Positions 17,627 to 56,276 of a DNA stretch of 64,000 nucleotides are shown here, piece by piece. The notes beneath the pieces are model-generated. The model did no database searches. It had not been told where the DNA came from and was given only the letters and a program-made list of their open reading frames with translations. The stretch is from contig PUQB01000141.1 in NCBI GenBank assembly GCA_003024785.1, forward strand, positions 426,976-490,975. Direction: 5' to 3'. Positions within the stretch are counted from its first letter, which is position 1. Every line of letters begins with the position of its first letter. The DNA comes from Selaginella tamariscina (lineage: Eukaryota; Streptophyta; Lycopodiopsida; Selaginellales; Selaginellaceae). The position numbers and the translations under genes are program-made.

Positions 17627-19188
17627 ATGGAATACCTATGGATATCAACAGCTTTAAGCTTATTTACCTTAGTTCTATGGAAAATATGGAGCTCTAAGTC
17701 ATCTTCATTGTGCCATCCCCCTGGGCCTCCCAATAAGCTTCCTGTTATTGGCCATCTTTACCTCCTTGCAAATGTCAAGCTCCTTCCACATGTTTTATTT
17801 GCTCAGCTAGCGAAGAAATATGGGCCAGTCATGTCTTTGCAAATGGGATCCCGTCCATTTGTAATAGCATCAACTAAGGAGGCAGCAGAAGAATTCCTCA
17901 AAACTACCGACACATTATTTGCTTCAAGGCCACAATACACTCCTTTGGGACGTATTTTCTCCTATGATCACCAGGACCTGGCAATGGCTCCTTACGGAGA
18001 ACGCTGGAGGCAAATGCGAAAGATTGTAACAGTTGATCTGCTGGTCCTCGCAAGATAGAAGCCATGAGGCCCAAGAGAATGGAAGAGATGACACGGATGC
18101 TGCAGGAGATCTCCATGCTTTGTGGTCAAGTCGTAGACGTGAGGTCTACGCTGTCCGAGGCGATGATCAACTTCGTATGCATCATGCTTATCGGCAAACG
18201 CTATTTTGGCCAAGGTACAGTGGACAGGAAAGAGGGAGAGAAGTTCCTTGAGATAATCGAGGAGATTCATCATCTATCTGGCAAGTTTTCCATCGGGGAG
18301 TTACTCCCTTGGCTCAACTGGGCCGACCTGGACAAGGTTGAGTCAAGGTTCAAAGCAATGGCAAAGCGTGCTGATGAATTCTTAGAGAATATCATTCGAG
18401 AGCATAGAAACAAGCAGAAAGAAATTGCTGGTGAAGATGAAGACTTCGTTGACAATCTTCTTAGGCTGCGTGACCACGGTGAAAAATGCCTACAGGGAGC
18501 GAGTCTCAAGGGGCTGATGATCGTAAGTTTAAGCATTCCACTTTGTATTTATCTAAACACCTATATATCTGCAGAACTTGTTTGCTGGTGCATCAGACAC
18601 ATCTAGCACGACACTGGAATGGGCATTGGCTGAACTTGTCAAGAACCCAGTGTGCATGAAGAAAGTTCAAGAAGAGATATCTAGGGTTGTAGGAGAGGAC
18701 CGGCTTCTTCGAGAAACTGATGTGCCAAATCTGCCATACCTGCAAGCGGTGGTCAAAGAAGTGTTCCGCTTGCACCCGCCCACCCCCTACTACTGCCTCA
18801 TAGTGCCACTACAGACTGCAAAGTGATGGGATAACATCTCCAAGGGTACGACACTTCTTGTAAACGTCCATACCATTGGGAGGGACCCCATGTTATGGGA
18901 GATCCTCATAAATTTCTTCCGGAGAGATTTCTTGGTCGTCATATTGATGTGAAGGGGAAGGACTTTGAACTCATTCCATTCGGGGCAGGACGAAGGAGTT
19001 GTCCAGGGATGGCTGTGGGACTTAACAATATTCACCTTGTGCTTGGTAACCTTGTGCATGCGTTTGACTGGAAGGAGCCCGAGGAGAATGGGGTTGATAT
19101 AGAACACGAGGTGTTTGGCCTGAACTTGCACATGGCCAAGAAGCTCGAGCTGATACCATCTGCCCGGAATGTGACTATAAAAATATAA
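17627..19188 (+). CDS. Cytochrome P450, CYP71 clan (A-type)
   Basis: This is a membrane-anchored haem monooxygenase of plant specialised or hormone metabolism; the substrate cannot be told. In order: an N-terminal anchor (LWISTALSLFTLVLWKIW), the proline hinge PPGPPNKLPVIGHLYLL, helix C WRQMRKI, I-helix AGASDTSSTTLEW, the K-helix region VVKEVFRLHPPTP, and the haem loop PFGAGRRSCPGMAVG with the Cys ligand near 19000. One phase-0 intron (about 18523-18575) precedes NLFAGASDTSS, the position common in A-type P450s. About four one-base losses interrupt the frame: near 18045, and three clustered at about 18795, 18832 and 18893; one is in a C run. All motifs are intact, so it is either a functional gene with consensus errors or a very young pseudogene. 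The length is about 500 residues, as expected. Confidence 0.85.
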
Positions 19189-20260: not shown

Positions 20261-22163
20261 TAATTGCCAATCTTCCTTGAATCGTTATGTAGCCCCCACC
20301 ATGTTTACTTTGATCTACATATATCCTATAAGTACTACTATTACTACTTAAAATGGATAAAACATTACTCAAATTTGTTTGCCGAGTGTCCTTTTAGGGT
20401 CCCATTTTGTTCATTGTATATGAGTACTCAGTGCCAGTGGGTCATTGTCGCTACTAATGTCTTCCGCTAAGGTTCAAAAACCCATTAAAATTAAAAATTT
20501 TGCCAATGGGTCACTATGTCCCCAAGGTTCAAAACCCATTAAAAAATTAAAAATTTTTAATAACATTACCTTTCTTTTGAAGGGTCATATATTTCAATGC
20601 CATTCTTTATGAAAGTTTTATTTTAAACATAACATTTTTTTTGAAAATCTTCATTAAAAATTGCCATTTATAAAGTTTAAAAGCCTCCTGAAAGGTATGA
20701 AAGCCGTCAAAGCCGAGGCATGATGTGTATATATACTTAAATGTAGTCTGCACGATACTCTATACATAGAAATATACTTAATATATATACATATCTATAG
20801 AATTACAGAAAGATAGCGTACGGCCTTGCCATATATGTACAAGCACATTTTGTGTGAGAGAGAGTATGTAATAACCATAACTATTAATCTATGTATAATT
20901 AGAATATTATATAAACTTTGAACTAATCCTTGATCATGCTTTTGTGCATAAATATATATTCTCATGTATTTTCAATATTAAATATGCAATATCGTGTATG
21001 TATATGTATAAATGTGCAGCTTCTATATGAAATTATATTGAATGACATAGATTCTCCATAAATGTATGTAGTTTTGGATCTTGTATAGGTATAGTATGTA
21101 TATTCCTCACATTTGCTTATGTATATATATAGCATGTATATGTATGAAATTTAGCTACATAGAACTACATATATTGAATATATGTAATATTTGTACATGA
21201 AATTAACATCAATGAAATTCAAACTAAAAGATGAAATTAACATCAATGGATCTAGTGGTTGACGGCTAGGTGCTCCTCAACAACAAGGTGGAGGTGAGTA
21301 GGGGGGTAGCTTGAGGTTTGCAGGGGGACAATTGGAGGTCCTAGGAGGAGGGCTGGATGTCCCATAGAGGAGGTGTAGAGGTCCATGGACAATATTGAGT
21401 CATGCTTTATACAACATGCTTGTGGTCATAACAAAATTCTAGATTGATGCAGAACAAAGGTCCACAAGAGGACAACCATGGGCATTATGAGCCTTGGTTA
21501 TGGCAGTGATAGCTATAGGTCATCATAAAGAAGGACGATATAGGTGGCCATCATAAGATTTCAAGAAGTAGGTGAATGATAGTGACATGGTTGACTGCCA
21601 ACCATTGGACCACGTGGAAAGTGTCGATCACACTATACGCAAAGATGGCTTTAACACAAAGATGCAAGTTGTAACTAAAATGGGCATGGCTATAGTCCCA
21701 TTTCCTAATAATTAGCAATTTTAGCTATTTAATTAGCATTTTCTAATATTAAAGGAATATTCTTTAGAATATATGTTTGAAAAGAGAATATTCTTTAGAA
21801 TATTCTATTTTGTATTCTACCCTTTAATAAATTATAGCATTCATTGAACAAAAATTAATAACATTATAAAAGTAGAATGTATTAAATTATATAATATATT
21901 GCCTAATATAACAATTAAGGAAGAGCATAAGAGGTACATTATATAAATATTGATGTTGTTATTAAAATATTAATATTTAAATATAACATTAATTAAAAAT
22001 TTGTAGTAGTAATAATATATATAAAAATCCTATAATAATATAGTCAATCTTCCATATCATTTTTTAAATTTATATAGTTAAGTATAAATTTGGTACTATT
22101 ATTAAAGAGTTTATAATAATTATGAATATTAAATATATGATATTTTATAATTTTGTAATTGCT
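20261..22163. other. Gene-free stretch with a GC-richer unidentified patch
   Basis: Mostly AT-rich DNA. At about 20430-20560 a short segment is loosely repeated (GGGTCATTGTCG/GGGTCACTATGTC with GGTTCAAAAACCCATT). From about 21240 to 21690 the base composition becomes markedly less AT-rich, with runs such as GGTGGAGGTGAGTAGGGGGG, but no frame stays open and I do not recognise it; a transposon remnant is the likeliest guess. From 21700 the AT-rich background resumes with repeats of AATATTCTTTAGAATAT. Confidence 0.4.
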
Positions 22164-25100
22164 TTAAGCTTCAGAAAACATACATTCCCTTGCAGTTTTG
22201 TTAATCGTGACTTTATCAACGCTTCTTGACATCCACCCATATCGAATGGATTTAACATTTATAAAACATGCTGGGTCTTTTTGATTGGGAGACCATGTTT
22301 TCTCTAGGCATCCATTATATCTTTCGCTCTCCTTCTCGTGTCGCCTTTTTTGTGGTTTGAACCATGCAACCTTAACAATACTATTTTTTGTGATTACTTC
22401 AGGTGTGTCGATAATTTGACCCATCCAAATAGGCTGATTATATGACGCATCTGGAGTAATGAGAACCATCATTAGTTTTTGAAGATCCTTGCAGCAATCA
22501 AAGTATGCTTTAGGTTTTTGGTTCCTTTGTCCAACAAAGTGTGGGGTTTGCACTTCCACATCACTACTGGCTTCTATGTCGTCTATGCTCAGTGATGTCA
22601 TTTCAATCTCCTCTCGCCACCTTGTTTTAGGCCAGAAAGGGTGTTGCAATTCTGTACTTGTGACAGTAGGCCCTTCCAACTCTCGAACAACAGTCTCCCA
22701 ATAGTTGACCACATGCTTATATAGTTCTGAGTAACCAGTTGCCTTATCAGAATTCTTTGGCATCGATTTTTGAACCCATGCCACATATTTTTTGATGCCA
22801 TCAATAATAACCTCTTGTTCCTTGAGCTGGGCACTCAATGGAATAGGGTCTGGTTGTCCTTCTGGGAGAAGTGGCTTTCCATCCTCTCCACTTTTGAAGA
22901 GCATTAAGCCCTCTTTCGGTAACCACTCCTGCTCTGATGGCCGTAACTTGTACTGCATAATAGGTATACCATCTCGTATGGAGAAAAAGAATTGTAGCGG
23001 CACAAGGTGACCAACTAAAGAATCACTCCCTTCTTTTATACTCCTTGAGAAATTTTTTGAAGTCTGGCACCTCAGTCACAAGCAAAGCACAACTTTTTTT
23101 GGAGATGCAATTTTCAAAAAGATTCATCATATGCGGTAAGGTAAGTGCACTTGTCCTTTTTGTAGAGTTGGAGACCTTGCTGAAGAACGCATCAATATCT
23201 TCATGAGTGTGACCAACCATAAGGAAACTGAGCGTGATTGTTTCAAACACACCTTTGGCAACAAGCATTGACAAGTATGCTAGCACATATCTAGAAAATA
23301 AAAGTAAGTATGAGCTTGAGAAACCCTTAAGTAAAATGATTTACCTATTTTTGTTCTCGCCTGCACAATTATCCATCTGTAAAAGCAAATGACGAGGAAG
23401 CTTATTTGATGTTGAGGACACATGTACACTATTTGAGCTAGATCCCTCCACTGAACCTGAACTCTCAACAGGGCCATCTGTTTTTTGTGCAGGTTGCTGA
23501 CAATGCCTCTCATATTCCCAAGTAGCCTCAAGTGCAGACGTGTTCATGAGAGCATTATGTAAAGGTTGAAGGTGTTGTTTCTTCACTTTGAGATCACTGA
23601 TAGGACTTGTCTGTGAGTGGGCTTCAAGGTTTCTGAAACACATGGCTAACGACCCAATAGTGAAATTGGAGTCGCTAGACCAATGTGGAAGTGAAAAGTG
23701 TCCATATGACTCACAACCGTGTCCATGTGTTAGCACACCTGTCAATGAAATCGGAAGTTTCATGACATTTCCAAGGCACTTTGGTGTTGCAAAGAGCTTT
23801 GGAATGCTGGTCTTTGAATGATCCATCTTGTCATGGATCAAGCACAGGTACTCTGATGGGCGTGACACAGAAAGCATGCGGTGTGCATAGTACTGAGACC
23901 GGCAAGTTTGTTGTGCAATCATGTGGGCCTCCATCTTCCTTTGAATGGTAGTGATCTCCACCAAGGTTTTTGCACAAGCCTCTGCAGCCTTCAATGATGT
24001 ACAAGTGTCACACTTAGAAAAGCTAGAGTGTTTTGCAATCTCCACATCCTTAAAATGAGTATTCCATATGTTGTTGAAGGTACCAGTGCAGATTGCTTGG
24101 AGCCCCATCAAACTGAGGCACTTGTTCACATGTTCACACAGTTTCAATTGAGTGTAGATTGAAGGTAAAACCTTGAGATTTTCCCTGACCCCTGCATTTG
24201 TGGTTCGGCATTTGTGAGGCATCCTGTCTGCATTTGCTTCCACAAAAGCCTTGAGTATCTCTATGGCTGCCATGATGTGAGAGCGGGTTTTGACCAAGCG
24301 AGTGTTCCCATGAACTGAGGTTCGCGCTCCATCTAGCCACTCATCCCTCCGACGGTAGAACGTGGTCTTTGGGATCCCGTATATACTGTACCAAGCTTTG
24401 AAGCAGATGGCCACCTTATTAAATACCATGGATGTACTCTGATAACCTGTGTCCGAGGCCATTCCATCAATACACCCAGTTAGTGCAGCATATACAAACT
24501 CATGCCTTTGCTTTTGGGTGAGCATACGAAAGACATGTCTACATTGGGTAATTTCATTCCGGTCTGCCATCTGACAACACTTCTTCTTGCAACAGTCAAT
24601 CGTGGAAATGCTCGTAACACTTTCGGAAGATGTAGGATCCATCTTTACCCTCTTGCTGAAACTTGCAGGGGAAGATCTACAACCCATGAATCGCCTTTTT
24701 CTTACAATAGGACCAATGCAAGGAACCTCTTCAAATATGAGTTGTTCTTCCGGGTTGTTATTATTGAAATCCAACCCAGAATATGTTGAACCATCTTGCC
24801 GTCTTAATTCAGATGTTCGCCACCTCACGAGGGATCCAGGATACAATGTGCCATTAGGTGAAACCTCTGTCACAACTACACCCACGAAGTCGGACCCTAG
24901 TTTCTCTTCTGACACTGCTTCCATTGGATTTATAGCTGTGATGATGCCTCTTCCGACTTCAATCTCACGAAGAAAGAGAATCACCTCATCCATCACAGCA
25001 GGCAAGCCATCATCTGGTAAACTCGTGCTACTATTTGTTTGTGACTCTGCATATTCTGTGTCAGCCTTGACTTCATCCAAATTCCACAATACAGGAGAAC

Positions 25101-25281
25101 CCTCCTCAAATTCCATTCCCAGAACCTCAACATGCTTGTAAATGGTGTTCACCCATACGTACACACAAGATCCTTGGGCAATATTGTGACATGATGCATT
25201 ATTATCTCGAACTTCCACAGTTCCAGTGCCAACTATCTCGTTGTTCCGAAGAAGACATACTTTATCTCCAGTATTAAACAT
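22164..25281 (-). CDS. DUF7869-like protein with RNase H/DDE-like motifs (transposase-like)
   Basis: Two long exons, 23343 to about 25288 and about 22164-23289, are joined by a 53-bp GT-AG intron. The N-terminal third has a domain I do not recognise. Then come a Cys cluster (CCKKKCCQ), a helix-turn-helix-like GIPKTTFYRRRDEW, a second Cys pair (SKCDTCTSLKA), and three spaced acidic motifs: LIHDKMDHSK, LLLQMDNCAGENKN and VGHTHEDIDAFFS. The last two are the hallmark of DUF7869-type proteins, and the trio resembles a DDE/RNase H catalytic core (inference). The tail is over 250 residues. The first in-frame ATG is at 25279-25281, but the exon opens right after a TGTGCAG acceptor, so a 5' exon is likely; a consensus donor CAA/GTAAGTAT on this strand near 26274 would place palindrome array 1 in intron 1. 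One one-base shift lies near 23025. Confidence 0.7.
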
Positions 25282-25433
25282 ATTGTCCTGCACATAAATA
25301 ATTGTATTATTTATGATATCTGTTTATGCAATATTTTAAGAAATCTGAATTACGGTTACTTAATAATATGCATATGCAATAATACATAATTATGTTTAGA
25401 GATAATATCTCATGTTTGATTAATACAACTGAT

Positions 25434-26106
25434 GGGCGGGATTAATCCCGCCCACGAATCCCTCCGACGAGGAACGGTCGGCGGGTATAATCCCGCCGCC
25501 GACTCAACCCCTTCGGAGAGAGTCGGCGGGATTAATCCCGCCTTGGACTCCCTCCGACAAGGAAGAGCCGGCGGGATTAATCCCGCCGCTCTTCCTCCTC
25601 GGGAGTCCGGCGGGATTAATCCCGCCGACTCCTCCCGAGAGAGTCGGCGGGATTAATCCCGCCGGACTCCCGAGGAGGAAGAGGCGGCGGGATTAATCCC
25701 GCCGGCTCTTCCTTGTCGGAGGGAGTCCAAGGCGGGATTAATCCCGCCCACAATTCTTACGACGGGGAATGGGTGGCGGGATTAAACCCGCACATAACTC
25801 TCTCCAAAACTATGATTTCAAAGAGATCTCGGGATAATCCTGTCCCCAAATCTTAAAACAGGGATGGTGGCGAGATTAATCCCGCCACCCCTTCCCTGCC
25901 TCCTAAAATGGTTGGCGGGATTAATCCCGCCGACAACTCTTTCTAATAAATTCTGGTAACTCTTCATCAGTTGAGAAGGTTATCGGCGGGATTAATCCCG
26001 CCACTCTTTTTCAGTGGCGGAGAAGCATTGCCCGAGATGGTGGCGGGATTAATCCCGCCACCTCTTCGAAGAGGCGAAAAAGAAATGGCCGGATTAATCC
26101 CGCCGC
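25434..26106. repeat. Palindrome array 1: about 14 copies of GGCGGGATTAATCCCGCC
   Basis: An 18-bp perfect inverted repeat recurs about every 38-46 bp for the first eight or nine copies, then more loosely to 26106. Roughly ten copies are exact or nearly so; others differ by one to a few bases (for example GGCGGGTATAATCCCGCC, GGCGAGATTAATCCCGCC). Linkers of about 22-28 bp are GC-rich and partly inverted copies of each other. The surroundings are strongly AT-rich, so the block stands out in composition. It lies just upstream of the first visible coding exon of the DUF7869-like gene. Confidence 0.95.
25525..25748. repeat. Large nested palindrome (about 224 bp) within array 1
   Basis: The two arms, about 105 bp each, match as reverse complements with only about one base of difference. 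They meet at a loop of about 13 bases (TCCTCCCGAGAGA) near 25637. Each arm contains 18-bp palindromes and linkers such as TTGGACTCCCTCCGACAAGG, matched by CCTTGTCGGAGGGAGTCCAA in the other arm. The structure is a hairpin made of hairpins. Confidence 0.9.
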
Positions 26107-27560
26107 CCGGTTAACCTAGAATATTAAGTTAAAAGGATATTTAAACGGGATAAATCCCTAACGGAATATATTATAATCCTAATGCATTCCTAAACCCCTA
26201 AATTGTAATTTTAAGAGAGAATGTAAGAGAGTGAATCTTTATAAGTATTTTTAAATTTGTTTATAATACTTACTTGTAAACAGCACTGAAGGCGCCGTGC
26301 TTTCCTATAAAGAATAGCACCCAATTTAATCTCGCTCCTGAGATGATCACTATGAAGAAAAAAGAAGATCTAAAGAGTGAAAAATACAGAAATGAAGAAA
26401 CCCTTGCCGGAGAAAGAACCAGATCTGAATTTGAGTGGGAAATTAAATGCATTTTCAAATTTACATGTCAGACCGACAATACATATGTCAGAAATTCAAA
26501 TTTTTTAAAAAGAACAGAAAATAAAATTTAAGATGAGTTGACACAAATATCCGACACTCTGACATATATACTCTCCAGTTCCAATGAGTATTTTAAAATT
26601 GCATTTAATGTTATTCAAGTGATTCAAGCTGTTTAATATTACGAAATTTTAGACTATATTCTACATTCTTAGTATTCAAGTATATTTATATTATATATAT
26701 ATATATAAATATACTTATACAATAAATAAATTGATATATTATTATGTATCATTTAAAATATATTCATAGTCTGTTTATTATTATTATTTTCTTAATTACT
26801 CGAGTATTTAGTTTTCATTTCCTAGTATCAATGGGATATTCTTTAATATTTTATTAATATTTGAAGAATATTCTAATATTAAACCTGATTATCATAATTA
26901 AATTAGTCTTGTTCTTAATTATTGCAGTAATTATTCTACATTTGTATATATTAATGGGATTTTCTCAATTAATTTGTTATTATTTCAAGAATATTCATGT
27001 GTTAAACCTTATTATCAATATTAAATTAATACACACTATGAACATATTTTAAATTATACATAATAATACATCATTTTATCTAATATATAGTCATATATAG
27101 TTTTAATAATATATATATTAATATCATTTCCTTAATTACTTGAGTAATTAATCTTCTTTATATTAATGGGATATTCTTTATTATTTTCTTATTATTCCAA
27201 GAATATTCCAATATTAAACATGATTATGATAATTAATTTAGTTAATTATTTGAGTACTTAATTTACATTTGTATATATTAATGGGATTTTCTCAATTAAT
27301 TTCTTATTATTTCAAGAATATTTCAATGTTAAACCTTTTTATCAATATTAAATTAATATATATTATTAAAACTATATATGGCTATATATTAGATAAAATC
27401 ATATATTATTATGTATAATTTAAAATATGTTCATAGTGTGTTTATTAATATTATTTTCTTAATTATTCGATGTTTGTTTTGCACACATATATAAACACAA
27501 TCATAAATTTACACACGCATTACAAGAACTTACAAAAACACATATGCACACACATGCACA
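26107..27560. other. AT-rich spacer with repeated segments between arrays
   Basis: Very AT-rich DNA. The segment AATGGGATATTCTTTA / AATGGGATTTTCTCAATTAA recurs four times (near 26830, 26950, 27165 and 27285), each followed by a TTCAAGAATATT-like motif and TTAAACCT. On the minus strand a GTAAGTAT donor near 26274 may end a first exon of the DUF7869-like gene. No open reading frame is convincing. Confidence 0.5.
27028..27450. repeat. Foldback element: inverted repeat arms of about 90 bp
   Basis: The left arm, about 27028-27120, contains AAATTATACATAATAATACA and ATATATAGTCATATATAG. The right arm, about 27355-27450, is its reverse complement with a few mismatches (CTATATATGGCTATATAT and TATTATTATGTATAATTT). 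The interior is about 235 bp. The right-arm sequence also occurs once more in direct orientation near 26738-26810. It resembles a foldback or MITE-like insertion, but no target duplication was identified. Confidence 0.7.
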
Positions 27561-28580
27561 ACCCTAAACCAAACTGAAGAAATATGTTGCTTCTTTATTG
27601 AAAACATCATGTTCAACGCATGTATGATATATGTACTCAATCTGTGTGTATGTAACACATTGAATTTACATGTGTAATATTTATATTAAGCTTGTTGGGA
27701 GCAAACCCTAAACCCTAAACCCTAAACCCTGTAACATGTACAAAAAAATTTTTCAACACTCTCTCTTCACACGCATGCATCCATCCTAAACCCAAACCCT
27801 AAATATGTAACACAATGAATTTACTCATGTAATATGTATGTATGTCTGTGTGTATACACGTGTGCATGTATATATGTGTACTTTCTGTCTTCTCTCATAC
27901 ATACACACCATGCATGATCCATGTTAATATGTACTGTCTCTCTTCTCTCAAACATACACACCATGCATGATCTATAATATGTACTCGGTCTCTCAATATT
28001 ATGTACTAATATGTATGTATGTCTGTGTGTATAATACACACCATGCATGATCCATAATATGTACTGTCTCTCTTCTCTCATATACTATGTATGTATATCT
28101 GTGTATAATATGTGTAAGTATATATGTGTACTAATATATGCAATGTGTACAAAAATAATTTTTCAACACTCTCTCTTCTCTCATACATACACACCATGCA
28201 TGATCCATCCTAAATCCAAAACCCTAAACCCTAAACCCTAAACCCATGTAATATGTATGTATGTCTGTGTGTATACACGTGTGTATGTATATATTATGTG
28301 TATTAATATATGCAATGTGTATGTATGTATTGATACACATGAAACTTTAACACTCTCATGGACACACACATGTTAAATCCCTGCATGATTTATATTTTTG
28401 GGGTGTATGTGATACACCCACGCACACGCACGCGCTAATAATATAATGAAAGAATATTCGTTTAGGGCGAATCTATATTTTATTCTTTTTAGGGTTTAAG
28501 TATATTCTCAGAAGGAATATTCTATTAGGGTTAATATATATATTTAATTCCTTTAGGGTTTAGGTATATTCTTAGGGTTT
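27561..28580. repeat. Interstitial telomere-type motifs with variant minisatellite
   Basis: Plant-type CCCTAAA units occur as four tandem copies at about 27704-27731, a degenerate set near 27786-27803, and about four copies at 28217-28244. Then the opposite orientation appears singly, as TTTAGGGTTTAGG and TTAGGGTTTCAAG at 28549-28580. Between them a minisatellite of about 100-130 bp is repeated, built of CATACACACCATGCATGATC and GTATGTATGTCTGTGTGTAT. The orientations converge on about 28.4 kb. Confidence 0.75.
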
Positions 28581-28626
28581 CAAGAGGCGGCGGCTGTGAA
28601 ATCGGCGGCGGCGGCTGTGCACACAG
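28575..28626 (+). other. Possible 5' exon (GC-rich, donor CACAG/GTGAGA)
   Basis: A GC-rich stretch of GGCGGCGGCTGTG units directly follows a telo-box-like TTAGGGTTT (a common plant promoter motif) and ends at a good donor, GTGAGATC, at 28627. It could be the first, non-coding exon of the ParB-like gene downstream, which would make the tandem repeats and array 2 its first intron. This is inference from signals alone. Confidence 0.3.
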
Positions 28627-28931
28627 GTGAGATCTGTGTGTGTGTGTGTATGTATGTATATATGTATAGGAGTGTGCGTATAAATTTATTTATTAGTTTT
28701 ATCTCTCGCACACACACGCACACTCCTGTGTATGTATATGTGTGTGGGTGTGTGTTTGTTTATCTGTATGATTTTATTTGTTTCGCTCACACACGCATAC
28801 ACACGATATACATATACACATATATATATATACCTATATACATATATACATACATATATTATGTGTACCAGTATCTGTAAATTTTTTTTATTGATCTATC
28901 TCTCCCACACACACGCACACTGCTTTACACA

Positions 28932-28973
<42 letters not shown>

Positions 28974-29617
28974 CAATGCATATTAACAAATAGTATACAA
29001 CACTAGTTTATATATATGCTTATATATTCATATGGGTTATATATCTATATACACACATATATATATGTGTGTGTTTATCTGTATAATTTTATTTATTTAT
29101 TAGTTTTATCTCTCGCACACACACGCACACTCCTGTGTATGTATATGTGTGTGTGTGTGTGTTTGTTTATCTGTATGATTTTATTTGTTTCGCTCACACA
29201 CGCATACACACAATATACATATACACATATATATATACCTATATACATATATACATACATACAACACTAGTTTATATATATGCTTATATATTCACAGACT
29301 CTCTCTCTTTCTCTATGGATTATATATCTATATACACACATATATATGTGTGTGTTTATCTGTATAATTTTATTTATTTATTAGTTTTATCTTTCGCACA
29401 CACACGCACACTCCTGTGTATATATATGTGTGTGTGTGTGTTTGTTTATCTGTATGATTTTATTTGTTTCGCTCACACGCATACACACGATATACATATA
29501 CACACATATATATACCTATGTACACACATATATTATGTGTACCAGTACTGTATAATTTTATTTATTTATCTATCTCTTGCACACACACGTACACTCCTAT
29601 ACATACATACATACATA

Positions 29618-29650
<33 letters not shown>

Positions 29651-29712
29651 TATATATGTGTGTGTTTTTATCTGTATAATTTTTTTATTTATTAATTTTA
29701 TCTCTCGCACAC
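28627..29712. repeat. Tandem GT/AC-rich higher-order repeat, units of about 280-410 bp
   Basis: Units share TTATTAGTTTTATCTCTCGC, CACACACACGCACACTCCTG, a (TG)n run, TTTGTTTATCTGTATGATTT and TTCGCTCACACACGCATAC, then CATATATACATAC. Starts lie near 28683, 29093, 29375 and a partial one near 29681. Open frames across it are low-complexity artefacts. It ends directly at palindrome array 2. Confidence 0.8.
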
Positions 29713-29721
29713 ACGCTAAGC

Positions 29722-31350
29722 CCCTCGACGCGGGATTAATCCCGCCGCTATAGGTTTATGGCCTCGGCGGCGGGATTAATCCCGCCGCTATATGGTTGGG
29801 GCCATGGCGGCGGGATTAATCCCGCCGCCGAGGCCCTTCACGCAGGCTATGGGCGGCGGGATTAATCCCGCCGCTCTACGACAAACCGAAGAGCGGCGGG
29901 ATTAATCCCGCCGCCCATGGCCTGCGTGAGGGGCCTCGGCGGCGGGATTAATCCCGCCGCTCACCCATGCCCTGCGCGGAATGCGGCGGGATTTATCTCG
30001 CCGGCAATGGCCTGTGTGAAGGCCCTAATGGGCGGGATTAATCCCGCCGGATTCCGCGCAGGGCATTTACAGGGGATGGGCGGCGGGATTAATCCCGCCG
30101 CTCATGAGGCTAACCGAAGAGCCTGCATGAAAGATCCTGCACGGAAGGCTAACCGAAGAGCCTGCATGACATGTCCTGCGCGTAAGGCGGCGGGATTAAT
30201 CCCGCCGCCCAGGGAATTCACGCAGGACATGAACGGCGGGATTAATCCGGCCCCACGCTCATGCCCTTCGCGGAGGGCGGCGGGATTAATCCCGCCGCTC
30301 AGGCACTTCCGCAGGATATAAGCGGCGGGATTAATCCCGCCCCCACCCATCCCTGTTCAAAATGCCGCAGCCAATATATATGTGTGAGCGCATGATTTAC
30401 GAGAGGGGCGGGATTAGTCTCTCCGAACCTTCATTACCCGGTGGCGGGATTAATCCCGCCACCCTTCTTTTTTTCCTCCATTGGTATGTTGAATCAATCC
30501 CGACTAACTCTGTCTGAGACGGAGAAGGTTTACAAAATACCAATGGAGGGAACTGAGAAGGGTGGTGGGATTAATTTCACCATCCCTTACATGGTGGGCG
30601 GGATTAATCCCGCCGCGTACGCATGCCCTGCGCGGAATCGGGCGGGATTTATCCCGCCGCCATTGGCCTTCCTGAAGGGCCTAGGCGGCGGGATTAATCC
30701 CGCAAGATTTCGCACAGGGCATTGGCGTTCGGCGGGATTAATCCCGCCGACTAAGGCCTGAGTGAAGGGCCTGGGACGCGGGATTAATCTCGCCGCGTAC
30801 GCATGCCCTGCGCGGAATCGGGCGGGATTTATCCCGCCGCCATTGGCCTGCCTGAAGTGCCTAGGCGGCGGGATTAATCCCGCCCGTTCCGCGCAGGGAA
30901 TTGGCGTCCGGCGGGATTAATCCCGCCGCATAGGGACCGAGTGAAGGCCCTGGGCGGCGGGATTAATCCCGCCGAGTCTTCAATGCCTGTTGGAGGAATG
31001 AATCCCGCCACCCTTCCTTTGTTTTCTCCATTGGTGAGTCGGACCAATCCCAAACGTTTCTGTCTGAGACGTAGAAGGTAGAAGGTTTCAACATACCAAT
31101 GGAGAGAATTGGGAAGGGTGGGGAAATTCATTTAACCATCACTTACATGGTGGGCGAGATTAATCCCGCCCCCTCTTCTGGATCACTGAAGGGGTGTGAG
31201 AAATAAATCCTGCCCAGTTCTCTCTGAAACCGAGAAGGGTGGCAAGATTAATTCCGCACTCCCGTTCAAGGCCTCCAGAAAGGTGGCGAGATTAATCCCG
31301 CCCACTCTTTCAGGAGGCATTGAAGGGGTGGCGAGATTAATCCCGCCGCA
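29722..31350. repeat. Palindrome array 2: about 31 copies of GGCGGGATTAATCCCGCC
   Basis: The same 18-bp palindrome as in array 1 repeats at about 40-49 bp for long stretches. Roughly half to two-thirds of the copies are exact; variants include GGCGGGATTTATCCCGCC, GGCGAGATTAATCCCGCC and broken ones near 30408, 30563 and 31190. Copies decay toward the right end. Linkers occur in both orientations (CATGCCCTGCGCGGAAT and ATTCCGCGCAGGGCAT). Duplicated blocks include 30610-30700 against 30791-30880, and 30470-30600 against 31000-31140. The array ends about 340 bp before the first visible coding exon of the ParB-like gene. Confidence 0.95.
29807..29960. repeat. Large nested palindrome (about 154 bp) within array 2
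   Basis: Two arms of about 71 bp, each holding two 18-bp palindromes and the linker CGAGGCCCTTCACGCAGG (inverted as CCTGCGTGAGGGGCCTCG in the other arm), meet around a 12-base loop, ACGACAAACCGA, near 29878-29889. I count about two mismatches between the arms. Its design matches the nested palindrome of array 1, although the linker sequences differ. Confidence 0.9.
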
Positions 31351-31461
31351 CCTTCCATGTGAATATATATGTGTATTAGTATATATAAGTTGCATATCTC
31401 ATTTTATTTACTTTTATCATCTTATCATAATATTTCGAGTAAAAGCTAGGAATCTATGTAA

Positions 31462-31548
31462 AACTGTCCAGAGCTCACATTTGTGGTGGTTCTAAAACGA
31501 AATGTTATCTTTCTTTTGCACTAACACAAATGTGAGCTTCGGACAGTT
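31462..31548. repeat. Inverted repeat upstream of the ParB-like gene
   Basis: AACTGTCCAGAGCTCACATT, continuing TGTG (31462-31485), is matched in reverse complement at 31525-31548 with two mismatches out of 24 and a spacer of 39 bases. It lies between array 2 and the first coding exon. It could be an operator-like site, a leader RNA hairpin or the trace of a small foldback element. Confidence 0.8.
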
Positions 31549-31690
31549 AATTACGTCTACTTCTCTCTGTGTATTATTTTTGTATATTCGGGTTTATACA
31601 AGTGTGTGTGCGTTTTTATATAATTTATATTTATAGTGTATTATTTTGCAGAAGGACGATTTGATCAAACAAGGAGATCGAGTCATTAGT

Positions 31691-34600
31691 ATGGAGTCGT
31701 CGTCAAATTCTGGGTAAGAATTAAAATAAAATCTGTTATACTCGGATACTTGAACTAATCATTTTTGTATTCAGATGTGGAATTGAGGTGACATTAAAGA
31801 CAAGAGCAGGAGAAGAGATGGGCAGGGGGATTCTGGAATCAACTTGGCCATATTTTAAGATAAATGGGAAGCGCATTGGAGCAACCATGGCTGCTGTCAA
31901 ATTAACCTCTGTCACATCTCATGGACAAGCAAAACAATGGAAAGTAGATTCGCTAGTCAAGCACCCGAAAGCAGGCTGCGAACCCAGATTGGACGATGCT
32001 CGACACATATGCCTTGTTCCATCCAATGTCACGTTCTCGGATCCAGAGGTCGTCAGTTACAACATTAATTTCGGGTGGTTTTGTCGACTTGTGGATAATG
32101 ACGTTCACGTGTTCACTAATGATGTTGACCTTGGAGTTCTTCTTCAACTCAACGAAAGCCCATCTATGGAGGGGATCCATCTGGATGTCTACTTCGAAAA
32201 TCTTCAGACTCATCGAGTAGGTGTATTGTCAGGAGATATTGCTTCACAATACAGAAAATCAGCAAGTGAAGCAATCTTCCCTCTTCACATTGAAGAAGAA
32301 CACAGCGACATCATAATGGAGATTGAGAGGGTGGCTCGGTCTCAGGTTCTCTACAGATCACGTTCAATTTGCTTAGGGAGCTTTGGGAGCTGGAAGAGTG
32401 TACCGAGAACACTAGAACAGCTGCAGTCGGGGATCACACATGTTGATTCGGATCGCAAAAGAAAATCATCAATCGTTTTGTCAGCTGCACCTGTGGCATC
32501 TCATGCTGCAATAAGTCACAAGGAAATGATGTTGGATGATAAGATTTATCCTTGTAGGGTTAAATATTGCAGCGTCAACCCAAACTTCAATTACAGGCCA
32601 CTCAACCAGGAACGTGTAGCTGAGCTCATGGAGAAGATGAAGGACGACAATTCTTATACCGTTCCACATAATGCTGTTTTGTGTCCATACTATGAAAGAA
32701 GGAAGGGCGCTGACAAAGTCTGGATCACAACACCAGAACAACTCATGAAGATTCAGACGGAGAATAAAAATCTATCAAGTACTACATCATTAGTGGCCAG
32801 CACACAATAACGGCAGCCCAACGACTTCTCGAGGAACACAACAAAGGAACGATGGCAACAAAACTTTCCGAGCATACCCGTGAGAAGCTGACAAAAAGAT
32901 CGGCGTTTTTAGCTAAGCCGAATCTCACAATCGAGCAGTACCATAAGTTATCGGCGGAATGGGACGCTGCCGACACCAACCACTACAACAGCAAAATATG
33001 GGAGAAGTTTAAACACACGCGAGCCGTGTGGGAATCTCTTCAGCGACCACAAAGAGCTACCGCAGGGAATACACAATCTGCGGAATACCGGGTAAGCAAA
33101 TTGTTTGGGCGGGATTTATCTCGCCGGTATATTAATCTGTCTTTTTCCTCAGAGAGTTGAAGAAATTGCAGCAGTTGATTTTGCCCAGGTGGGCGGAAGG
33201 AAACATCCTTTCTGATGATGTTGATTTCTTGCCCCGAAGATAAGATCTTTGCCAAATGGTTGGGGATTATGGAATCCTTTTCAAAAGGAACACTGAAGAA
33301 GAAGCAGACAAGTGAAGGGGAGCCCTCAGAAAAGTCTGCAAAGAAACCCAGTAAGACGCCGAAGGCTAAGTCTGTTCAATCTACAAAGGATGTAGACAAC
33401 GATTTCAAGCTCACATGGTTGAAGCCTTTAAATGGAACAACGATGGAGGAGATGGAAGTCTTGGCTGATTTGGTGATCGATGGCAAACTACAAATTAATA
33501 ACAGCAGCCCAACCTCTCCTTTTCATCTCAAGGCAATGGAGTTGAAGACGGTCAGGCATTTCAAGGAGTGGTTGGGAATACACTGCCACAAACTGGGTTG
33601 GACCTCGACTTCAACATATGAAGAGGTCAGCAAATATTTGCATGTGACGAACGATGATATGCTTGTCGAATGGGTGAACCAATCGGAAGATCTGGGCAAG
33701 AATCTATTGCACGCCAACGCCAAAAAGGAGAACATTGGGATGACGCCTTCTCTTATGGCAGTCCTTCAGCAGCGGAGAACCGAATTGAACCTTATAAAGG
33801 AGGATGCTACAAATCACGACAAGCCCTACAGATGTTTGTTGTTAGATTCGGAGACTTTATGGGGTAACATCACTGCTTGTAGGAAACCGTTTCAATTGTT
33901 CGTGATGGATCGGCGGGTGTCAAAAAATCTTTCGACAGATAGGGCACTAGAGGATCTGGTGGAGAAACTTAGCCGTGCAAGCATATACATAGAAGGTATT
34001 TATTATTGAATTCATGCTTGCGCTCTTCACTGATACCTACTTTTTCAGGTATTTATTTCTTGATTCTTGCTCATGTCACCGATACTTTTGCCTTCGCCTT
34101 CGCCAAGAAGAATAGACATCGTTGGACAGGATTTTATATGAACGATGCTAATCCCAAGTGCATTGATACCGTTGTTCACTTGGTTGTTAGGAATGCGCCA
34201 AACAATTTCAAGCTTCCAAATGACTGGCCAGGCATCTGTTTGCACTCCAACGGCCCTGAACCTCCATCCGATACACCGATAGGTATGAGTGACGTATTCG
34301 ACAATGTACGTTATCCAAACATTACAAGTCAAGCGGCACGGAGCATCGTCAACTTGATTAGGGGTCCTCACAGTGATGCGTGGGTTTTTGACTACTGCAC
34401 TAGGGGGTCTTGAAGGAGTGTTACCTTCGGCATACATGTGTGTTTGCCGTTGAAAAGGATAAGACCATGGTTGAGGACCTGAACAAGTGGATAGATTGGG
34501 TCTCAACTGAGTACCCCAACGATTCCATAAAGGCGTATTTGAGAAAGTTCCCTCCAGATAAGTGCGATAGCTCTGAAGGTGAATCTGGTTCAATCTCGGA

Positions 34601-34790
34601 GTCTGAGAACGAACTTCAATCAGATATTAGACCGGAAGTTATCTCGAGGAGTACAGAACATTCGCACACTCCAGGACCCATGGAAACATCAATAGAAGAT
34701 GCAGAAGATCTTGAACCATCTCACAAGCGGCTTAGACCTTCTTCGCCTCACTCAGAAGGTAATAGCGAAGAAGAATTGATAATGAATTGA
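31691..34790 (+). CDS. ParB-like domain plus degenerate DNA-methyltransferase-like protein
   Basis: Coding starts at ATG 31691 in a short exon (to 31713) and joins in phase to the exon from 31775 (CGIEVTLKTRAGEEMGRG). The first 250 residues are unrecognised. Next is a ParB/sulfiredoxin-like domain: PLNQERVAELMEKM, then in another frame YYIISGQHTITAAQRLLEEH, matching the ParB pattern ending in GxHR and AA. The usual Arg is Thr here. After an intron at 33092-33152 and a basic, Ser/Lys-rich linker, a domain like beta-class m6A/m4C methyltransferases follows: ITSQAARSIVNLI, WVFDYCTRG (place of motif I) and CVFAVEKD. The catalytic DPPY is not seen; FVMDRRVS is near its expected place. The tail is acidic. 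About four frame breaks occur. ParB-methylase fusions are known in phages; this would be a eukaryotic relative (inference). Confidence 0.6.
33108..33125. repeat. Solitary array palindrome inside an intron of the ParB-like gene
   Basis: GGCGGGATTTATCTCGCC, a two-base variant of the array palindrome (an identical variant occurs in array 2 near 29983), lies in the 61-bp GT-AG intron 33092-33152. It is the only copy I saw outside the two arrays. Confidence 0.85.
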
Positions 34791-35063
34791 TAGAGTGACG
34801 AATAGTTGTAAATGAGTGTAACATAAGGCATTTTTGTATATTTCTTTTATATTTGTACAGAAAATAAATTCTCAAGGATTAATGAAGCTTTTAGTTCAAA
34901 CATGGGTCACACATTAACAAGGTAAAATAATATACCTTGATAATTTTAAGGTCAGCTAATTATCATTTTGCAGATGTAATGAAATAATTGAGAACATGGA
35001 TTTTCAGCATTGCCATGAGGTAAGAGAGGGGTTTGGCGACAATTTCTTGTGCCACATGTCAGA

Positions 35064-36228
35064 ATGACAGAGTTCATGCAGGAAATGGATAATAATGCAG
35101 CTCAAAACATCGTTACCATGGGGGCCACTTCATCATCATTTTTATTGGCTTCAGTTCCGAAATCAATTTCTTCAGCGCATGCAATATCTGAATCTTGTAA
35201 GGATGATGTACAATTAAATGATGAAGGGATAGGCAACGAGATAGTGGCAACGGATAAATGTGAAAGGGAGCAAACAAGTGATTTGCAAAGTATTCAAGAG
35301 GCAACGCTATCTCATGTTACTCATGGCCATATTGTGTTGTTGGATGTCAATGGTGTTCTGCTTCATCGACAAAGGCCCCAGGATAGAAAAAAGAAATCAA
35401 ACAAGGAGATTTCATTCCTTGTCATGGTAAATTTCGATATGATATTATTTTTCGTCCAGGGTTGGATCGTCTCTTTCAAAAGCTTAAGGAGATGGGTGCG
35501 CTTGTGGGGATTTGGTCATGCATGCAGATTCATAACTTAACACCGCTGTTGAATTTACTTAAGAAACATTGTAGTGTTGCAGAAGAGGTGATTCGTAAAG
35601 ATTGGATTTTTGACCAGCGAATGTGTCATAAACCTCTCGAATTTCAAATATAAGAAAGGAAAGCAAGCCATACTTCTTCAAGAATGAAAGAATAATTGGG
35701 ACTCATGGGGAGATCAGTCGCTTAAGGATAATGAAGAACGCACAGATGTTAGTAGTAGACGACTCTCCTCAGAAGGCTATGCTCAACCAAAACATTGCTT
35801 GTATTCATCCAATCACTTTCGATCCATATTCTGATACCGATATCATGGATGAGCTAGTGAACTACTTGGATACGTGCCTCAGAAAGAAGAATCTCGAAAA
35901 TTTTTGTGAGCAGTATCCACCGTATCATACATTTCCTGAAGCTTTTCTTTCTCGTGATATTGAATTTTATAAAATGAAGGATAGCAACCGGGCGCTTTAT
36001 AATATTATTCTTAAGGAACGTCAGTTTTTAGATGAGCCTTTATGCAGACCTTCTCTTATCACATCTTATGTATTAACAAGGATGGCAACTCCCAATTGCA
36101 TTCGTGAGAGTGTTAAGTGGTGGCAACAACATCAAGATATTGACCAAAATGATTTGATTAATCCGGAGAGTGATGATTTAGACAAAATGAAAAGATTTCT
36201 TTGTATGATAGAAAGAAAGTATTTATAA
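35064..36228 (+). CDS. FCP1/SCP-like HAD-family phosphatase domain protein
   Basis: The protein has a divergent N-terminus of about 90 residues, then a HAD/FCP1-like core. Motif I reads HIVLLDVNGVLLH, with Asn in place of the second Asp, as also seen in some plant FCP-like proteins. Then come FRPGLDRLFQKLKEMGALVG (the FCP1 block in which the substrate strand follows RPG), GIWSCMQIHNLTPLL, and motif III/IV MLVVDDSPQKAMLNQN. The C-terminal part is of unknown type (WWQQHQDIDQNDL). FCP1-type enzymes dephosphorylate proteins such as RNA polymerase II tails; with the changed motif I this one may be catalytically altered. About two frame breaks. A small exon (about 34975-35019, ending at GTAAGAG) may precede it. 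It follows the ParB-like gene in the same orientation, about 270 bp away. Confidence 0.6.
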
Positions 36229-39200
36229 AAAATTAACATGTTGATAAGAAAATGATTTCATTTGTAATTATGTTTGATAGTATTTCTTCATTATTGTAAA
36301 CTATTTTTAGAATAATATGAATATTCTAAGATATTTTAGGAATATTCCTTACTAAGTAAGGTTATTGAAGGATTAATTAATTAATTAATTAATATTTAAG
36401 GCTTAATTACATATTAATTAAATGATTAATTAATAATTAAAACTTAAGTATTAATTAGTAATTTATTTTATATTCCCATTTTCACGTATCATGCCCACTT
36501 TACATTTACAACGTGCATTTTGTGCAAACCCATTCTTTTTTGTGATCTTTTTTAATAACAGTTTTGCCACTATTGTCGAACATAGAATCTAAATTTGATT
36601 GGTCCCTTGGAATATTTATAATGCTATAATAGTCATTCGTTACTAAGTGTACACATTTTGCCTCATCTTTTTTTAGCTTTTCTCTTCTTTGTGACATTTG
36701 TCATTTCACTATGTTCTTAGAGGTAAATTAGAAATAAAAAATAAAACATGCCCTAAAAGATACATATTATTTCACTTTGAATAATTGAATCTCTCATTGC
36801 ACTTTTTTATTTTAGAAACTGCAAAACTTACTCATTTTTTAGCTCATATTTCACCTTGAACCAAATCATTTTGAAACCCCTTAAAATTAATTCTACAAAA
36901 TTACCATCTACCACATTTAATTAATATTTAAGAATCTCAATTATAACCATGGTTACAATAAAACTTTAGTGCTAAAACACCAAAAAATCTCAACAAAGGT
37001 GATTAGAACATAGTGAAAAGAATTAAATAAAAAATTAAACTAAAAAATAAAAGGGCAAGAACAATTTGAAAATTAAATGCTTTAATCATATATTATCTAA
37101 AGAAACACTAATAAATAACCCCATCTCATATGCTTAAACACATATAACATGTGTTGTACATGTTGTAAGATTTAGAATGTCCAAGATGCTTACGTGGCTA
37201 CTTACATATTAACACTTTCATGTTATAAAATATTTTTTTAAAATATTCTATGCATATTCTTAGCATTAACATCTTAATATCAAGTTTAAATATACTTTAA
37301 TATATTCTTAGCATGACATCATAACATAAATATGCTTTAACATTGATATCAATGTTGCATTAATACTTGTTATTTAAGTTTCATGAACTTACACATAAAT
37401 TTACACGTATGTTTGTTACAACATTAAGGACTTCTTTGTGATAAGTAAATCTTCAACATTAAAGACTTTTAAATTTGATAAACTTACACATAAACTTTCT
37501 TTACAACACTAACCCCTTCGTGATATATTGAAATTTTCATTATGATTCTTTAGCACTGAGGACTCTATTATGACAAATAAATTTTAATTATAGATTCTTG
37601 GGTATCGATGAGTGTATTGAGTTATCCATATCCTCAAGTTGGAAATTTCATTATAATCATTCAAATAATTAGAGTTAAAAACATTATTTTGTCATGGTCT
37701 CTATTTAGTCATTTAGTTCTTCATTACTAAATGTTAAAGCTTTAATTGAGTCGCATGAATTCTTAAAGCAAAAAGTTCCTTATTGACATTAAAAACTAAA
37801 GTGTGCTAACAAAAATAAAAATACATACATCTATATGTCTCAAAATTAAGAACTACATGGTGTAGAAACACTAAACATAGTAAGACTACATATAGGTGCT
37901 GTACACATCCTTTTGTTTATTATATTTATCCTTATTAATATATTTTAATATCAATCTTTATTGCAAATTTACCATTCTTTAACTACTTTGATCTAAGATT
38001 ATTTTACATTTTAAAAAAATTTAATTTTGATTTCATTGGTGTATTGGCATTACACTTAAAGACCTTAGTCTCATTAGCTTAGTTGTGTACTCGTATTTTA
38101 ATTTATTAAATTAAATTTATTTATTTTTATTGAAACTCTATTTTACTTCCATTTGACTTTCATATTTAGGAAAAATATCTTCCACAAAGAGAATGACGTC
38201 CTTCATTGATAATTTAGTATTTGTTTGTGGTGAAAATCTAATAATTAAAATTGTTGTAAAGTCAAATGTTACACTATCATTCAATAAAGATTTCATTCTC
38301 TAACAAACATTGCTAATTTAAACATTAAATTAAATATATTAAAATTTATAAACTTACATTGATAATAATAAATATTGTTAATGTTATAGTGAATTTATTA
38401 TATTTCTATTTTAGTGTTGCAATATTGATTTTTAACCAAATTTGCTTTTGCTTTAATGTCTTATCTATTGAATTTTTTTTTAATCTCTTTATAATTATAA
38501 TGATAAACTATAGTATTTTATTTATAAACCATCAAGATGTATTTAAGCTTTGAAATATAAAAATTTCTTTAAAAATATGTAAATATTTATTTCTAAAACC
38601 TTGTGAAAGATTATTTTAAATTCATGAAAAATAATTTAAACCACGACTTAAGGATTTAATATAATATATATATATATGCACATAATCTTTCAATTCTAAA
38701 CATATTTTCTATATTTTTATTTTAATTAAAGGCAAACAATATGTATATTGATGTAAGTATTACAAAGTGTTTTAAACATTTAACATTGATTAATGATCAG
38801 TGTTTAAATAATACAAAGCATCTCTAAACTCTTAGAAATCAATTAAGAGATGTATAAGATATCTAGTTTAAACAAATATATATAAATTAAGTAAGATTAC
38901 TTATTCACAATAGCATTCTTTCCAACTACGGATCAAATGGAAGGGATTTGTGATTTTTCGTTTTAAGTTTGACTATCTATAGTACATGTGTATGCAGACA
39001 CAAGCAATACATAGATAGTATTTTCATTAGAGAAAAACTTGTAATTAATATTTTGTGTAATTAGTTTAATTCTTGATGATACGTTAATTATTGTTTATTA
39101 TGTAACTAGTTTGGAAGTGAATGTATATGATAACTAAACGTTGTACCCCATGAAATATATTTCTTAACTCGATCGTTACCATCACAAAATTTGCATGCAC

Positions 39201-55400: not shown

Positions 55401-56245
55401 GAGACTGGGTTAAAGTCAGGGACGATCTCCAGGACACTAAATACGGCTGGAAAGGTACTTATTTTAGGAAAAACACACACATGTATGTGTGAGAGACACA
55501 TCTATATATACTTGTGTCGTCACGCATCTATAATATCTTTATGTCGTAGACACACATGTATGTGTGAGAGACACATCATATAATATAGTTATGTGGCCTT
55601 TTTCAAAATTACTACAATAGAAAACCTGTGGTATATGCATGTATATGGACACAGGAGACACATTTATGTAAATGCACAAACAAAGAACACACACACTTTA
55701 TGTTGTTCTAATTGTGGGAAACTGTGATAAAGGTGCAAGGCCAGGGAGTGTGGGAATAGTACAGGTCAAGTATAATGCATGTTACAAACGTTATTTTATG
55801 CTGATGCTATATAACACAGGGGATTGGTCATGAGCTGGACGAAAGAGCTGTACTTGTGGGATTCTGTGGTGAGCAAGAGAGATGGATCGGTTTACCTTCA
55901 GAGGTTGATAGGGCTACTCCACTAAAGGCGGGACAACAGGTGTGCGTGTGCGTGCGTGCGTGTGTGTGTGTGCATCGTATAGAATAAAGATGTCAAAGTG
56001 AGCGAAATTTTGTTTGTTAACTGTTGGAGAACATGGTTATGAATATAGTTCATATCTACGCTATTAGTTTTATGCAGTATAACCCGTAAATTAAACCCAT
56101 CCAACAAATAGCAAGTTCTTGAAAAACACAAGTGTGTTTTTGGTTACTGTTGCCTTTAATTTGAATACCTTGTTATTATATGATATATGAACATTTTATG
56201 TTGTTACAACTTACTTAATATATATATATAGAGAGAGAGAGAGAG

Positions 56246-56276
<31 letters not shown>

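Follow-up and report, generated by a model that had tools for sequence, protein, structure and literature searches.

Two arrays of an 18-bp palindrome, GGCGGGATTAATCCCGCC, lie promoter-proximal and directly upstream of two divergent transposon genes in the 64,000-nucleotide stretch of the Selaginella tamariscina genome that we analyzed (contig PUQB01000141.1, positions 426,976 to 490,975 of the forward strand; this whole stretch is referred to below as the window). The arrays are a real, ordered feature, and they are carried by a dispersed DNA transposon of ~14.9 kb. In kind, the feature is explained as transposon-borne site arrays, whose function we infer from sequence comparisons. With a probability of roughly 0.5, we propose that the arrays are putative operator or enhancer blocks of the divergent promoter region, bound by a protein of the element (or of the host).

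Two ordered palindrome arrays upstream of divergent genes

Array A (25434..26104) contains 14 copies of the palindrome with at most 3 mismatches, 10 of them exact, and array B (29729..31347) contains 28, of which 16 are exact, giving 26 exact palindromes among the 42 array copies; neither array is assigned a strand. One further copy lies alone on the forward strand at 33108..33125, in intron 2 (33091-33152) of the right gene. The window thus holds 43 matches at this threshold, compared with none in 100 dinucleotide shuffles, and allowing up to 6 mismatches raises the number of sites to 49. An earlier sequence-only reading of this DNA had counted about 45 copies in two blocks, and these numbers agree with it. 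The spacing of about 40–49 bp that it reported describes the commonest class, with a mode of 44–46 bp, but leaves out the remaining spacings of 33–51 bp and the jumps of 57–161 bp. It had also placed neighboring sites on the same face of the helix, and this is not what we observe: at 10.5 bp/turn, the spacings are off by 114° in array A and 100° in array B (resultants of 0.32 and 0.48), so that neighbors at 44–46 bp are a quarter turn or more apart. Palindrome identity between the two arrays is 0.93, whereas linker identity is 0.378, compared with 0.344 for shuffled linkers, and the earlier observation that the linkers differ between the arrays while the palindrome stays constant is borne out.

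Symmetry had been described as kept even in diverged copies. Across 356 palindrome copies, most changes are one-sided, but complementary double changes at positions 4/15 were observed 11 times versus 3.2 expected (6 versus 3.8 when only distinct sequences are counted), and there is a weak excess at positions 3/16 (4 versus 1.4 expected; 3 versus 2.3 for distinct sequences). No other position pair shows an excess in these copies, and the description therefore applies at 4/15 and weakly at 3/16 only. Exactly two changes are present in 53 copies; 7 of these copies are perfect palindromes, against an expectation of about 1, but the 7 represent two sequence types (5 and 2 copies) that are seen in a divergent element described below.

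Array A starts ~150 bp upstream of the first ATG (25281) of the left gene, and array B ends ~345 bp upstream of the likely ATG (31691) of the right gene. The genes on either side had been called divergent accessory genes; they are divergent and do flank the arrays, but they belong to the transposon. Forty-two of the 43 window sites with at most 3 mismatches fall within the arrays, one is in the intron, and none is near the ends of the element. The intron palindrome and intron 2 are kept in 9 aligned rows, which represent 8 distinct copies (the window included; the rows for L019 and L020 overlap). As a prediction test, we computed the place of array A on 7 other contigs from hits to DUF7869, the family matched by the left gene, using the first nine rows of our search of the same genome. 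An array was present at the predicted place in 5 of the 7 loci (on C585, C660, C982, C649, and C722), the one on C722 being decayed and without exact sites.

The arrays are carried by a dispersed DNA transposon

Across the assembly (300.7 Mb in 1391 contigs), there are 27,128 exact matches to the 18-mer and none to its reversed control. We inspected 100 of these places, all on contig C1; they form clusters, several of which are paired 3–4 kb apart. Eleven stretches fetched from C1 (L010–L020, with a 1-kb overlap between L019 and L020) span all 100 places, and all eleven contain element DNA homologous to the window, so we reject a free-standing satellite. The sequence-only reading had set an ordinary genome-wide satellite, with its spacing explained by one tandem monomer, against its own interpretation, and half of this was found: the 18-mer is indeed present genome-wide and a monomer explains most of the spacing, yet both reside within a mobile element.

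The element occupies 21662..36518 of the window, without an assigned strand, and its limits are defined by terminal inverted repeats (TIRs) and by the loss of homology at 21662 and ~36518, where matches end in several unrelated flanks. Apart from the spacer that separates the arrays, long matches are 91–99% identical, with the exception of L018, part of a divergent rearranged element, at 76–89%. The TIR is 27 bp, ATGCAMGTTGTAACTAAARTGGGCATG, and the termini start with ATGCA. The left TIR, ATGCAAGTTGTAACTAAAATGGGCATG (21662..21688, forward strand), recurs as an identical 27-mer at C1:182274, 323972, and 2054336, and the right TIR (36490..36518, reverse strand) is altered in the window copy relative to the others. 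Both ends were seen in five copies, three of which have identical 4-bp target duplications (ATGT, TTAT, and ATAA) and one of which matches in 3 of 4 bases; the flanks of the window copy (AAAG left, TTTG right) have no matching 4-bp duplication. The window copy is 14,857 bp long and the longest complete relative is 14,798 bp (C1:796442-811239), and small indels in the window copy and its relatives may reflect decay or assembly errors. From the dispersed copies with common ends, the TIRs, and the target duplications, we conclude that the element is a TIR (cut-and-paste type) DNA transposon.

Two element copies, at ~901–912 kb and ~920–931 kb of C1 (L015, L016, L033, and L034), are identical in the 20 bp of their left flank, a pattern suggestive of segmental duplication. 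A search of a viral collection with the exact 18-mer returned one site, in the 13.5-kb locus L001, of which the 120 bases around the site were read; we treat this match as chance.

Palindromes diverge more slowly than linkers between subfamilies

The element copies form two subfamilies, one comprising the window, L014, and L020 and the other L010–L013 and L015–L017; L018 and L019 were left out of the array comparison. In pairs aligned between the subfamilies, the palindromes of array A differ at 4.8% of positions (215/4518) and its linkers at 12.8% (700/5470), a ratio of 0.37, and array B gives nearly the same ratio, 0.38, from 2.6% (97/3706) and 6.8% (425/6243). Within the subfamilies, the ratio is 0.88 for array A (3.6%, 170/4659, versus 4.1%, 303/7345) and 0.66 for array B (1.9%, 67/3616, versus 2.8%, 184/6571). 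Stricter filters, in which L016 (a probable segmental duplicate of L015) was left out and alignment blocks below 85% or 90% identity were dropped, give 0.31–0.43 between subfamilies and 0.73–1.03 within them. The check suggested with the sequence-only reading, whether palindromes change more slowly than linkers, therefore comes out positive between subfamilies (0.31–0.43) but not clearly within them (0.66–1.03).

When one exception is allowed, 14 of 540 palindrome columns (2.6%) are fixed different between the subfamilies, compared with 125 of 903 linker columns (Fisher p ~3e-14). Palindrome columns are thus fixed different less often than third codon positions of exon 2 (28/323; first positions 13/324, second positions 13/321); in the rates for exon 2, the introns, and the 5′ leader, L019 and L020 are both counted although they are pieces of one copy. 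Private changes are found at 69/540 palindrome and 178/903 linker columns (two-by-two test, p ~3e-5). Simulated arrays that were mutated uniformly, with gains and losses of units, give a pooled ratio of 0.95–1.08 by the same method, and no single simulation run for array B fell below 0.72. The comparison between subfamilies thus supports an apparent constraint that applies to the palindrome and not to the repeat unit as a whole, subject to the possibility of unusually fast linkers that is considered below.

Origin and decay of the arrays

Most of the spacing is likely explained by a ~45-bp tandem monomer ancestral to the arrays, because three linkers towards the block edges match the 27-bp linker of the divergent element (C1:2054336 onward) at 0.67–0.78, where the null maximum is 0.52. 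That rearranged relative (C1:2054336-2072500; L018, L025, and L019) has palindrome clusters that are often ~480 bp apart, symmetric variant sites GGCCGGATTAATCCGGCC and GGCAGGATTAATCCTGCC, and spacings of 28–29 bp alongside 43–46 bp. Whole repeat units have also been duplicated in inverted orientation (pairs I5 and I7), and long inverted repeats within the arrays have arms that are 74–99% complementary in the pairs shown. The earlier preference for selection or copying of the palindrome over simple tandem duplication is supported in part, by the between-subfamily ratio of 0.31–0.43, and weakened by the ~45-bp monomer and by introns and a leader that are equally slow.

The palindromes decay chiefly by C to T and G to A changes, which are strong at C14/G5 and C15/G4. 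We rejected the near-invariant ATTAAT center as proof of a protein footprint because C-to-T decay spares A/T and because the site lists were selected by similarity. In the decayed copy L045, which has no exact site, the majority sequence of 15 sites is this same 18-mer, the sites having been picked by their similarity to it.

Possible function of the arrays

In the operator reading, each palindrome would be a binding site for a DNA-binding protein, either a dimer or a protein with paired domains, and each array would be an operator or enhancer block that maintains or regulates the expression of the element's genes, for instance in the face of silencing by the host. As the binder, we consider an element-encoded protein most likely, which could be the transposase or the orphan right-hand protein. 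The arrays would have descended from the ~45-bp monomer, their linkers turning over by tandem and inverted duplication while selection retained the 18-bp site, and after insertion the sites would decay like other DNA. If so, the 27,128 exact sites in 300 Mb would be a large set of element-borne binding sites in the host genome, and the perfect 18-bp palindrome would be a ready handle for finding the binder.

Several observations weigh against an operator function. At 6/176 columns in the introns of the right gene and 9/310 in its 5′ leader, fixed differences are about as rare there as in the palindromes, and non-array columns beside the arrays (45/294) change as fast as the linkers, so that the contrast may come partly from unusually fast linkers instead of slow palindromes. 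The slow introns and leader lower our confidence in the operator reading and raise it for a repeat with no function. The selection test is in effect one comparison of two lineages, with columns that are non-independent, and single simulation runs for array A reached ratios as low as 0.33 at 4% divergence and 0.60 at 12%. Private changes are far commoner in the arrays than in exon 2 (24/1311), a sign that units have been misaligned or have exchanged sequence, and gene conversion could mimic constraint. Two of the seven predicted loci have no array, the one on C1182 having spacer sequence at the predicted place and the one on C633 nothing recognizable. We also rejected protection from methylation in the manner of a CpG island: the observed/expected CpG ratio is 1.03–1.10 in the arrays but 0.59–0.66 in the linkers alone, similar to that in the flanks (0.56–0.67), and hence there is no sign of lasting freedom from methylation. 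Finally, no DNA-binding domain was recognized in the right-hand protein.

The slow introns and leader would also fit a function-less tandem repeat within a transposon, in which the palindromes persist either because concerted evolution (gene conversion or hairpin-guided repair) homogenizes them as the one part that every unit has in common or because linkers change unusually fast. The ancestral 45-bp monomer, the whole units duplicated in inverted orientation, and some within-subfamily ratios below 1 (0.66–0.91) agree with such a repeat. Conversion would, however, be needed between subfamilies yet have acted little after insertion, and the lone intron palindrome, which is outside the arrays, has been kept in place in 8 copies; we regard the absence of function as unlikely. 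The promoter-proximal position and the constraint would also fit if a host transcription factor bound the palindromes and the transposon had amplified a host promoter site, and the inverted GGAT half-sites are reminiscent of GARP-type or bicoid-type sites of plants. However, we saw no host promoter that carries the 18-mer, the 100 inspected places of the 27,128 all being in element-bearing stretches, and a host factor seems to us a doubtful binder.

Plant DNA transposons carry arrays of transposase-bound motifs, and the palindromes could likewise serve in transpososome assembly in the manner of CACTA/En-Spm subterminal repeats. Two homologues, P0001 and P0005, do have weak matches to TNP1/En-Spm (PF03017; 6.6e-4 and 2.9e-3, below the cut-off), but the arrays occupy the middle of the element, where the genes start, with none close to the terminal repeats, which makes this role highly improbable. 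The long inverted repeats in the arrays and the excess of symmetric double changes at 4/15 would also suit repeats that act as folded RNA or DNA, with hairpin transcripts and small RNAs. Most changes across the palindrome are uncompensated, however, and all 89 matches to Rfam within the element, most of them on array hairpins, score below the gathering thresholds, so that we give folding hardly any weight.

Comparison with known systems

The closest design that we found is that of VANC, a protein of the Arabidopsis VANDAL transposons. VANC, which has DUF1985/DUF287 and is encoded by VANDALs along with the VANA transposase, binds a short motif that is present as tandem repeats in non-coding regions of the element, leading to DNA methylation loss; the VANC21 motif is the 9-mer YAGTATTAY (Hosaka et al. 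2017, PMC5735166; Sasaki et al. 2023, PMC10398659). The present element is similar in being a large plant DNA transposon with a short motif repeated in non-coding regions and in having arrays that grow by tandem repetition and are not the same in related elements. It differs in its proteins, a DUF7869 protein and a second one that is an orphan, and in its motif, a perfect palindrome of 18 bp. Because Pfam finds none of the VANC (DUF1985/DUF287) or VANA families in ten pieces of the open reading frames (ORFs) of the element, the parallel with VANC, which we offer by analogy, is one of design only and not of descent. If the arrays load an element protein, this would be a further, unrelated case in which a plant transposon uses arrays of a short motif to govern its own expression or silencing.

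Arrays of short motifs within a plant DNA transposon are also a likeness to CACTA/En-Spm elements. Those elements have CACTA/G termini, 3-bp duplications, and subterminal motif arrays bound by TnpA, whereas here the termini are ATGCA, the duplications are 4 bp, and the arrays are central and promoter-proximal. With these termini and duplications, and with no window palindrome near the ends, we do not place the element in CACTA/En-Spm. Target duplications of 4 bp are also found in Sola-type and other DNA transposon superfamilies, and the likeness noted here is in these duplications.

The multiple palindromic sites resemble those of ParB-parS systems, and the right protein contains a stretch, YIISGQHTITAAQRLL, that looks like a ParB box by eye but is without profile support. 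We rejected the ParB reading of this protein: at a maximum E-value of 10, with HMMER filters that drop most matches above ~0.1, no ParB family was matched in Pfam, NCBIfam, or PHROGs and no PDB sequence matched, and two homologue searches were empty. A single-sequence structure model of the protein has a strand and helix order that we judged ParB-compatible, but with a predicted local distance difference test score (pLDDT) of 44.5 it is too poor to count. It is quite improbable, on this evidence, that the orphan is a new kind of DNA-binder, such as a ParB-like clamp that has diverged strongly, which is loaded onto the palindromes and spreads from there along the transposon. If it were, a eukaryotic mobile element would be equipped with loading arrays of a centromere-like or anti-silencing kind at each of its two promoters.

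A literature search on 'ATTAATCCC/GGGATTAAT' gave no transposon paper, judging by the titles of part of the results. Searches on ParB in eukaryotic transposons, Sola and 4-bp target duplications, subterminal palindromic arrays, moss transposons, and CACTA did not turn up the element among the part of the results seen, which is not proof of novelty.

Genes of the element and its surroundings

The left gene (22164..25281, reverse strand) encodes a transposase-like protein with DUF7869 (Pfam PF25273, 2.5e-12). We read its splice sites as giving exon 1 at ~25281-23345, an intron at 23344-23291, and exon 2 from 23290 to ~22164, and the reading frame of the window copy is broken once, near 23023. 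Among 5.8 billion proteins searched, 5 homologues were found at E ≤0.01, two of them full-length (P0001 and P0002; 1055 and 1060 amino acids, 34% and 36% identity, E-values of 1.3e-99 and 3.5e-96). DNCAGENKN and GHTHEDID are candidate acidic motifs of the protein; Pfam assigns DUF7869 no function, and a literature search on it found no paper. Our search of the same genome for DUF7869 gave at least 300 matches from the 150 candidates that were scored out of 4249 first-look candidates.

The right gene (31691..34790, forward strand) encodes an orphan protein of ~970 amino acids from exons at ~31691-31713, 31775-33090, 33153-33994, and 34049-34790, and its frame is broken in the window copy near 32768 and again in exons 3 and 4. 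Pieces of the protein have no Pfam or NCBIfam match above the cut-off and one weak PHROG match of unknown function (0.042), and the two homologue searches gave none. Near the right end of the element is a forward-strand NIF/HAD-phosphatase-like ORF (35340..36228; Pfam PF03031), which scores 2.4e-7 in the L011 copy and, in pieces of the window copy, 2.6e-5 (above the cut-off) and 0.0041 (below it). The family motif is DxDx(T/V), and the ORF reads DVNGV at that position; it is perhaps a captured host gene, or inactive. In the Pfam scan of the ten ORF pieces, only DUF7869 and NIF are above the cut-off.

The spacer between the arrays (26105..29728, no assigned strand) is AT-rich over its 3.6 kb and contains microsatellites as well as short, telomere-like runs of CCCTAAA at 27703-27730 and 28209-28245. 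Its identity is ~65–87% between subfamilies and ~96–97% where L014 and L020 match over long stretches. A microRNA-like hairpin with 24-nt arms (31462..31548, forward strand) lies in the leader of the right gene, after array B and before the start codon; it has a predicted RNA fold of -45.3 kcal/mol (z = -7.57) and overlaps no Rfam match. The hairpin is kept with small changes in 8 aligned rows, the window included, and in L020 one arm is short of 3 nt.

Outside the element, two consecutive cytochrome P450 reading frames lie at 17627-18606, and the region at 46499-56680 has a RING domain followed by Mind-bomb SH3_15 repeats, an arrangement that we take to resemble the plant KEG E3 ligase. These P450, RING, and Mind-bomb SH3 genes near the element look plant-like.

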